This document shows positions 44,696 to 47,098 of a stretch of 64,000 nt of DNA, piece after piece (positions within the stretch are counted from its first letter, which is position 1; every line of letters begins with the position of its first letter). The notes below the pieces were generated by a model. That model was given only the letters and a program-made list of their open reading frames with translations, ran no database searches and was not told where the DNA came from. The stretch spans positions 62,001-126,000 of the forward strand of contig NZ_FSRE01000002.1 in the NCBI RefSeq assembly GCF_900141795.1. Reading direction: 5' to 3'. Made by a program: the position numbers and the translations under genes. Origin of the DNA: Sulfurivirga caldicuralii (GTDB taxonomy: Bacteria > Pseudomonadota > Gammaproteobacteria > Thiomicrospirales > Thiomicrospiraceae).

Positions 44696-45328
44696 TCAGT
44701 CGATCCCAAGCAGCTTGTGAGTCTGCAGGCTCAGGCGCCATTGCGGGTGCTTGAGGCAGTAGTTTAGGGTCTTGCGCAGGTTGGCCTGCTGGTTGGGCCC
44801 GTCCATGGGTTGCAGATAGAACAGTTTGAATTCGAGGTGTGCCACTTTCTCTGGCGGCAGATCAGCCTGCGGATATACCAGCTTGAGCTCGTCGCCCCAT
44901 GTCTGAATCAGCGGCGCACCGGCCTTGGGGCTGACTGTCAGCCAGTCGATGCCGCCCGGCGCCTTGATGGTGCCGTTGGTTTCCACCGCGATCTCAAAAC
45001 GTTGCCGTTTGAGCGCCTTGAGCAGGGCGGTATCCACCTGCAGCAGGGGTTCGCCACCGGTCAGCACCACGAAAGGGGGTACGCTGATATCTGGCCAGAA
45101 GCGAATGAGGTGTTCAACCAGTGCCTCGGCCGTGTCGAAACGGCCACCATTTTGTCCGTCGGTGCCCACGAAATCGGTATCACAGAAGCGGCACACCGCA
45201 GTGGCGCGATCTTCCTCCTTGCCCGTCCAAAGGTTGCAATGGCTGAAGCGACAGAAAATGGCGGGGCGACCGCTGTGGGCCCCTTCGCCCTGCAGTGAAT
45301 AGAAGACTTCCTTGATGCGGTAGGCCAT
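44696..45328 (-). CDS. queE: 7-carboxy-7-deazaguanine synthase QueE
   Basis: Radical SAM enzyme of queuosine synthesis making CDG from 6-carboxytetrahydropterin, 210 residues. The cluster cysteines follow the CX14CX2C pattern of the proteobacterial type: C31, C46, C49. The SAM motif TGGEPLLQ is present. Its product feeds QueC, encoded at 34449. The 161 nt between its stop and the tRNA-Arg terminator holds no recognisable gene. Confidence 0.94.
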
Positions 45329-45361
45329 GGGCAGCGTCCGAAATTAAAAAGGTTATTTTAC

Positions 45362-45632
45362 GGCACCTCCGCAAAACCTCTGAACGGTCGCGACAGTGGC
45401 GATTCCGGTTCAAGGCAAGACGCACCGAACGTGGCATGGTCATTCCGTGCGAGTGAGGTGCAACACCGCATTGGGCCGGAATCGCCCTGTCCCTTCGGGT
45501 TGCGGCGGGACGGCAGCATCTTCTGCGTTGCGCGGCTTGCCTTTGGCGCCAACAAAAGCTGCGCCGTGCGCCTTGAATCTGCTGCCCTCGCGCCAGCAAC
45601 GCGAGCGCATTCAGAGGTTTTGCGGAGGTGCC
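45362..45632. mobile_element. MITE-like non-coding element with perfect 23 bp terminal inverted repeats
   Basis: The left end (45362-45384, starting GGCACCTCCGC) is the exact reverse complement of the right end (45610-45632, ending GCGGAGGTGCC), giving a 271 bp element. A second perfect 11 bp inverted pair lies inside (GGCGATTCCGG at 45398-45408, CCGGAATCGCC at 45476-45486). A TTCAAGG motif also occurs inward of both ends in opposite orientation, so the homology of the arms extends imperfectly. No transposase is encoded and I see no target-site duplication. It fills the queE-leuC gap, whose start codons it separates. Confidence 0.75.
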
Positions 45633-45682
45633 TTGCTGCTATAATGGCAAGATTATTTCTATCGGATATCGACGAGCGGATC

Positions 45683-47098
45683 ATGGCAGGAAAAACCCTC
45701 TACGACAAGCTCTGGGGCGAGCATGTGGTGCGTCAGGATGAGGATGGCACCGCATTAATCTATATCGACCGCCACCTGTTGCACGAAGTGACCTCGCCGC
45801 AGGCGTTTGAAGGCCTGCGTCTGGCCGGGCGCAAGCCGTGGCGCGTGGATGCCAATCTGTGTACCCCGGATCACAATGTGCCCACCACCGAAGTGGAAGG
45901 GGGGCCGGAGAACATCGAAGACCCCATCTCGCGCATTCAGGTGCTGACCCTGGACAAAAATGCGCAGGAATTTGGCATTCTCGAGTTCCCCATGGGGGAT
46001 CCCCGTCAGGGCATTGTCCATGTGGTGGGCCCAGAGGAGGGGGCCACCCTGCCAGGCATGACTGTGGTCTGCGGCGACTCCCATACTTCCACCCACGGTG
46101 CGCTCGGTTGTCTGGCGCATGGTATCGGTACCTCGGAAGTTGAGCATGTGCTGGCCACTCAGTGCCTGATCCAGAAGAAAATGAAGAACATGCTCATCAA
46201 GGTGGATGGGCAGCTGCAGCCGGGCGTGGGTCCCAAGGATGTCATTCTGTACATTATCGGCCAGATCGGTACTGCTGGCGGAACCGGTTATGCCATCGAG
46301 TTCGGCGGCCAGGTGTTCCGCGACATGTCCATCGAAGGGCGCATGACAGTGTGTAACATGGCCATCGAAGCGGGCGCCCGCGCCGGTATGGTGGCCGTGG
46401 ATGACAAGACCATCGATTACGTAAAAGGGCGCCCGTTTGCCCCCACCGGCGAGCTGTGGGACCGTGCGGTTGAGCATTGGAAGACTCTGCACTCCGATCC
46501 GGATGCCGACTTCGATGTGGTGCTGGAGTTTGACGGCAGCCAGATCGAACCGCAGGTGACTTGGGGGACGTCCCCGGAAATGGTGATTCCCATTACCGGC
46601 AAGGTGCCGAATCCCGATTATGAAACGGATCCGGTACGCGAGGCCGGCATGCGTCGCGCGCTGGAATACATGGGGCTGGAGGCTGAAACGCCGGCGACCG
46701 AAATTCCGGTGGACTATGTCTTTATCGGCTCCTGTACCAACTCGCGCATCGAAGACCTGCGTGCCGCTGCGGAAATCGTCAAGGGACGCAAGGTGTCCGA
46801 CCGCGTGGAGCAGGCGTTGGTGGTGCCCGGTTCCGGTCTGGTGAAGATGCAGGCGGAAAAGGAAGGGTTGGACAAGATCTTCAAGGAGGCCGGGTTCCAG
46901 TGGCGCAACCCGGGCTGCTCCATGTGTCTGGCCATGAATGCCGACCGTCTGCCGCCGAAAAAGCACTGCGCCTCCACCTCGAACCGCAACTTCGAGGGGC
47001 GGCAGGGCGCTGGCGGGCGCACGCACCTGGTCAGCCCGCAGATGGCCGCTGCAGCAGCCATTGCCGGGCATTTCGTTGATGTACGTGAATTTCTGTAA
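45683..47098 (+). CDS. leuC: 3-isopropylmalate dehydratase large subunit
   Basis: 4Fe-4S isomerase converting 2- to 3-isopropylmalate with LeuD, 471 residues. Cluster cysteines are in GSCTNSR and PGCSMC, and the substrate blocks [13 protein letters not shown] and [12 protein letters not shown] are intact. The frame is open 84 codons further upstream through the inverted-repeat element, but ATG 45683 gives the family N-terminus ([10 protein letters not shown]). TATAAT at 45640-45645, eight bases beyond the element, may be its -10. Confidence 0.96.

Follow-up and report, generated by a model that had tools for sequence, protein, structure and literature searches.

A mobile element upstream of leuC in Sulfurivirga caldicuralii carries an inverted pair of conserved hairpins that probably act as folded single strands

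We describe the Y-element, a 271-bp non-coding element upstream of leuC in a 64,000-nucleotide stretch of the Sulfurivirga caldicuralii genome (contig NZ_FSRE01000002.1, positions 62,001 to 126,000; hereafter, the window). In our reading, to which we assign a probability of about 0.7, it is a non-autonomous transposon that would be moved in trans and that carries an inverted pair of conserved, single-strand-acting hairpins, probably binding a host factor. MITEs are usually viewed as the passive and short-lived leftovers of a single insertion sequence (IS). Here, at least two classes retain a core of the same layout on mobilising ends that change, and this core bears a signature of selection on the folded single strand.

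Results

Position and anatomy of the element

The preliminary description of this DNA, made from its letters, had claimed a 271-bp non-coding element with perfect 23-bp terminal inverted repeats (TIRs) filling the queE–leuC gap, and each part of this claim was borne out (Table 1). The two TIRs are exact over 23 nt and spaced 225 nt apart, and the element occupies most of the gap between the two divergent genes (queE, 44696–45328, − strand; leuC, 45683–47098, + strand; both above curated cut-offs). No family above cut-off was found in Pfam for 8 open frames from the leuC element and related elements, nor in NCBIfam for 5 open frames. The internal inverted pair noted at 11 bp is present, but proved slightly longer and imperfect (45398–45416 with 45468–45486; 19 nt, 84% complementary), and the TTCAAGG motifs seen in both arms correspond to the CAAGGC loop motif of each. 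Beyond these features, we found a 4-bp target duplication, and the two inner hairpins turned out to be inverted copies of one another.

Table 1 Features of the Y-element and its flanks (positions in the window).
Feature	Position	Strand	Basis or remark
Y-element, 271-bp non-autonomous mobile element	45362–45632	none	TIRs, genome copies, empty sites
Left TIR, GGCACCTCCGCAAAACCTCTGAA	45362–45384	+	Exact reverse complement of right TIR
Right TIR	45610–45632	−	23-nt exact reverse complement of left arm
Target duplication, left copy, TTAC	45358–45361	+	Single copy at congener empty site, ATTTTAC followed by TGCTATAAT
Target duplication, right copy, TTGC (one change)	45633–45636	+	Alignment with congeners
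Arm 1, sense-oriented hairpin module	45392–45491 (bounds approximate)	+	Fold, alignments, class-wide data
Arm 1 loop motif, 5′ side, CAAGGC	45411–45416	+	Near-invariant class-wide
Arm 1 loop motif, 3′ side, CAACAC (consensus CAACGC)	45461–45466	+	
Inter-arm linker, CCCTTCGGG	45491–45499	none	Class consensus CCCt.cGGGcg
Arm 2, the hairpin module inverted (sense on − strand)	45495–45604 (bounds approximate)	−	Fold, alignments
Arm 2 loop motif, 5′ side, CAAGGC	45570–45575	−	
Arm 2 loop motif, 3′ side, CAACGC	45525–45530	−	
TATAAT, likely −10 of leuC	45640–45645	+	7 bp beyond element end; conserved in congeners; promoter function inferred

The left TIR occurs in 27 copies at up to 3 mismatches in the host genome, against 0 for the reversed control pattern, and 100 shuffles of the window gave 0 TIR matches at the same threshold. 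The single-strand fold of the leuC element was far better than those of shuffled sequences on both strands (z of −12.3 and −9.7).

The leuC element had no Rfam match at the gathering threshold and none at E ≤ 1, and its relatives gave scattered sub-threshold matches only (such as M23, SAM_alpha and miRNA families). A known RNA family was rejected, as no Rfam match appeared even at relaxed thresholds; a coding element, or one with the DUF1658-like peptide found in QMITE1 of Coxiella, was rejected for want of any protein-family match. The literature searched, which covered few subscription journals, held no earlier description of the Y-element. Judged from Rfam, Pfam, NCBIfam and this literature, the superfamily is apparently uncatalogued, which agrees with the earlier failure to recognise a named family.

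Mobility and present state in the host genome

The host genome (G000; 1.67 Mb, 99.99% complete) holds about 26 dispersed copies of the element, located on both strands and on all large contigs, with approximately 70–90% identity; some are internally deleted, yet keep both ends. Exact 4-bp duplications flank L004 (TTAT), L006 (CTTA), L015 (TTTA), L017 (CTGA) and L018 (TTAG), and those of other copies have decayed. All host copies examined are intergenic, with gene orientation assigned by codon scoring placing them in 10 divergent, 10 convergent and 6 tandem gene pairs.

A joined-flank query revealed that the queE–leuC site is contiguous and without the element in 3/3 congeners (78–80% identity). 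A second host insertion site is also empty in 3/3 congeners, and two further sites are empty in one congener each. In the alignment with two congeners, the pre-insertion sequence ATTTTAC followed by TGCTATAAT has become ATTTTAC-element-TTGCTGCTATAAT, from which it follows that the insertion duplicated TTAC, directly upstream of the conserved TATAAT of leuC; this TATAAT is also found at the empty site in congeners G001 and G002. The leuC element is a MITE by its mobility, as the preliminary description had proposed, with common ends, internal deletions, 4-bp duplications and empty orthologous sites. A single copy, identical at orthologous loci in all relatives, had been named as the mark of an ordinary regulatory leader; we found a multicopy element and empty congener sites instead.

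Several copies (the leuC one, L011, L015 and L020) end 0–7 bp before a TATAAT. The element may often insert at AT-rich −10 regions, possibly replacing the −35 of the following gene.

No match to PF05598 or PF01609 was found in the host genome, which suggests that the host family has probably lost its transposase. Considering this lack of an IS5-type transposase domain and the divergence of the copies, the family looks dead in this genome, a fossil. Since the copies there have also lost the wobble bias described below, selection on structure has probably ceased to act on the leuC copy itself.

Relatives across the family, class and phylum

A covariance model built from 22 copies (R1) detected relatives in 25/63 genomes of the taxonomic family. 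These are about 260 bp long and keep the fold with different ends (GGGCACCTCGAATAACCCC, GGAATCTCTGATTAA and GGAACCTCTGATTGAATC); their consensus fold, built from a clean set leaving out truncated and foreign-ended copies, comprises 99 pairs, 44 of which have changes on both sides. Genome G012 carries dozens of copies with nearly identical ends, together with single-armed derivatives flanked by clean 4-bp duplications (GAAT, AATA and ATTA), indicating a young population; the contig breaks of this genome are young Y-elements.

A second covariance model (R2) was used for class- and phylum-wide searches, in which only about five candidates were scored per genome. It gave full-length matches in 72/369 sampled Gammaproteobacteria (58/271 genera), many with E below 1e-30, and matches in 30/398 genomes of the phylum sample, including another class (several genera of family f207, and f208). 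As many as 74 arms were found in one genome. The one relative queried by BLAST against plasmids and phages, L130, had no match there. The superfamily spans at least two classes and swaps its ends.

Further observations were made among the relatives. L076 and some 20 other copies in G051 match the model over its inner part alone and have GGTTCCCTAGGGTCTGTTGACAATTCATAATTAG as left flank, which suggests that yet another kind of end is joined to this core. At L123 (1302–1499) and L131 (2002–2090), a second and shorter copy, of Y type or single-armed, lies less than 1 kb from a full element, so the elements sometimes cluster. At L216 (G348:C1, 1–127), a single-armed element adjoins a stretch that matches, below gathering, the model for archaeal SRP RNA (E 7.8e-10); in this stretch a bacterial SRP RNA gene probably ends. 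A short palindrome resembling ACCAGGCCTGGT recurs beside genes at L143 and at L095, L100 and L103 (G012, G056), and is perhaps a regulator binding site.

Ends and candidate transposases

Several relatives combine an IS5-type TIR with a CTAG (YTAR) duplication; the leuC copy has TTAC, and a TIR without a matching host IS. A complete IS in G183 (L156:1273–2459) has CTAG on both sides, the TIR GGAACCTCTGATCAATC and an IS5-family transposase (NF033581), and the same TIR type also caps Y-elements L114, L080 and L066 of genomes G118, G016 and G022, the complete IS5 thus sitting in a genome other than those of the Y-elements it resembles. In G207, CTAG-GGAACCTCTGCACGAACCG adjoins a decayed IS5-type gene and equals the Y-element TIR of that genome but for one change.

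The Y-elements of G183 have another TIR, CTAAGACAAACGATAAC, with TA on both sides in 19/22, and no long partner was found. The TA flanks without a long partner suggest as their mover a transposase akin to IS630/Tc1 that targets TA; the flanking TA may, however, belong to the TIR itself. No intact IS with the host genome's own TIR was found. The search of the taxonomic family for an autonomous partner by its own TIR likewise gave none, the long-spaced TIR pairs of G012 that were examined having no transposase.

A shared fold of two inverted hairpins

The full-length sequences inspected all fold as the same general Y, consisting of a terminal stem, an arm, a short CCC-GGG linker and a second arm. 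Taking one element per locus (44 in all), we found 92.9% of the 4338 cells to be paired and 91/99 pairs to have double-sided changes, in alignments that were fitted to the structure and hence favour it; when partners were slid by 1–3 columns, 38–42% of cells were paired. These slid controls, along with the free variation of the stem sequences, make the pairing result robust.

R2 matches both strands of every full element. A single-armed form of about 157 bp also exists separately, and arm 1, arm 2 (on the opposite strand) and this form align with few gaps. The arms have in common a nearly fixed internal loop, with CAAGGCG on its 5′ side and AACGC-G on its 3′ side, and a 7-bp inner stem of free sequence. 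Using a single-arm model (R3), we observed the same arm order in 55/55 two-arm loci, with each strand bearing one arm. In 130 arms, 93.9% of cells were paired, against 55.6% in shuffled controls, with a covariation score of 0.974 against 0.227; stem sequences vary freely with the pairing kept, and compensatory changes occur in every pair. The two arms are one hairpin module of about 85 nt, the second being inverted. Covariance analysis, proposed at the outset as a check on the fold, shows it to be kept by compensatory changes beyond the controls.

Strand on which the arms are selected

We then compared G.T with A.C mismatches in the stems. A G.T mismatch is an A.C mismatch when read on the opposite strand, so the two are expected in equal number in duplex repeats or homogenised palindromes. 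Read in the CAAGGCG sense, the arms had a G.T:A.C ratio of 182:35 (60 loci against 4), from matches chosen and aligned by G.U-crediting models, which could inflate the bias; among loci outside model building, 45 had the G.T bias against 2. Both arms exhibited it (arm 1, 36:5; arm 2, 50:22); since they lie on opposite strands, it cannot stem from a strand bias in mutation. The ratio in the terminal stem was 32:32, which is what transposase sites recognised as duplex DNA should show. A large effect of the models is unlikely given this terminal-stem control and arm 2, whose bias opposes the preference of R2.

The bias of the arms, together with its absence from the terminal stem, suggests that the arms are selected as single-stranded structures. 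In active lineages, selection probably acts on the arms in folded, single-stranded form, for which RNA is the simplest candidate; single-stranded DNA also tolerates G.T better than A.C, so RNA is not proven by this comparison. The arms of 15 copies in the host genome gave 62:65, indicating that the constraint is gone there. The preliminary description had offered a mobile structured RNA or DNA repeat as its other reading; the compensatory changes across genera and the strand-specific wobble asymmetry of the arms uphold this as well.

Discussion

The mechanism we propose combines two modes of recognition. A DDE transposase would recognise the TIRs and move the element in trans, and the terminal stem would be kept as double-stranded transposase sites. 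Each arm would function in folded, single-stranded form (RNA being the simplest case), with an internal loop read by a widely conserved host factor that the hairpin probably binds. Because the arms are inverted, a transcript from either direction would carry one sense hairpin, making the orientation of insertion irrelevant. Our guess is that such binding may favour the survival or spread of the element, for example by making insertions less costly or by protecting transcripts.

A bolder version of this proposal would make the RNA module, rather than the transposon, the unit: a class-spanning selfish structured RNA that borrows the TIRs of unrelated transposases (IS5-type with CTAG, and TA-target) and, whichever way it is inserted, acts on a conserved host factor. 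We put this forward tentatively, at somewhat less than even odds. If the module is RNA, it represents a large, abundant and apparently uncatalogued family (up to 74 arms per genome) whose partner is directly searchable. The wobble-asymmetry test separates RNA-like strand selection from selection on double-stranded repeats, and it also reveals that copies can lose the single-strand constraint after the death of their family.

The arms might instead act as single-stranded DNA or cruciform hairpins in replication or transposition; owing to the inverted layout, either strand would present one sense hairpin when serving as the lagging template. We consider this unlikely, even though the two-fold layout suits DNA strands as well as transcripts and DNA hairpins likewise tolerate G.T above A.C. 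IS5-family transposases act on double-stranded ends, and the arms are retained even where the ends have switched from one transposase type to another, which implies that they are not tied to one transposase.

An ordinary IS5-type MITE with a functionless folded core, in which palindromes arose once and were held perfect by template switching or gene conversion between the arms, mimicking compensation, is improbable. Its TIRs and duplications would be those observed, the host-genome arms do drift without wobble bias, and quasi-palindrome correction is a known process. Such correction, however, would not account for the conservation among genera of unpaired loop letters and of constant loop and stem lengths, nor would it give 182:35 with the same sense in both arms and 32:32 in the terminal stem.

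A regulatory leader of leuC (whether a structured 5′ region or a promoter) that has adapted to leucine synthesis is very improbable: the element does lie 51 bp upstream of leuC, and a TATAAT follows it at a distance of 7 bp, but the empty orthologous sites in 3/3 congeners, which keep the same TATAAT, led us to reject a host leuC leader, and some 26 copies are dispersed beside unrelated gene pairs and show no remaining wobble bias.

Comparison with known systems

The Y-element resembles IS5-derived MITEs in being short, non-coding, multicopy and intergenic, with IS5-matching TIRs and 4-bp CTAG-like duplications. The cores of ordinary MITEs are lineage-specific remnants, whereas that of the Y-element is conserved over dozens of genera, shows strand-specific selection on its fold and is found with more than one end type. 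IStrons and the guide RNAs of IS200/IS605 likewise place a structured nucleic acid on a transposon; the Y-element differs in having no coding gene, intron core or Rfam match, and in that its module is an inverted pair.

Correia elements/NEMIS, ERIC, REP-BIME and REPINs are also dispersed intergenic palindromic repeats, and REPINs and BIMEs pair hairpins in inverted orientation; by description, all are set apart from the Y-element in size and motifs. We know of none among them with the 260-bp Y fold and the CAAGGCG/AACGC-G loops. REPs measure 20–40 bp and are linked to a REP-associated tyrosine (HUH) transposase (PMC3733652, PMC3116915).

QMITE1 and QMITE2 of Coxiella burnetii are 150–400 bp long, with TIRs of about 21–29 nt and strongly folding transcripts, some giving small RNAs; QMITE1 was described as having no orthologues in other genomes, and QMITE2 has 7–11-nt repeats and a GTAG REP (PMC5896051). 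Compared by description, these are, like the Y-element, gammaproteobacterial MITEs with TIRs and strong folding. The MITEs of Candidatus Thiomargarita nelsonii (Thiotrichales) occur in many copies and form large hairpins, one type having TATA-like ends and being compared with IS630, and its hupL MITE has 10-bp direct and 19-bp inverted repeats, with no parental IS found (PMC4853749). They share with the Y-element, again by description, their multicopy and hairpin-forming character, and the repeats of the hupL MITE differ. By kind, the Coxiella QMITEs and the Thiomargarita MITEs are the nearest described relatives of the Y-element.
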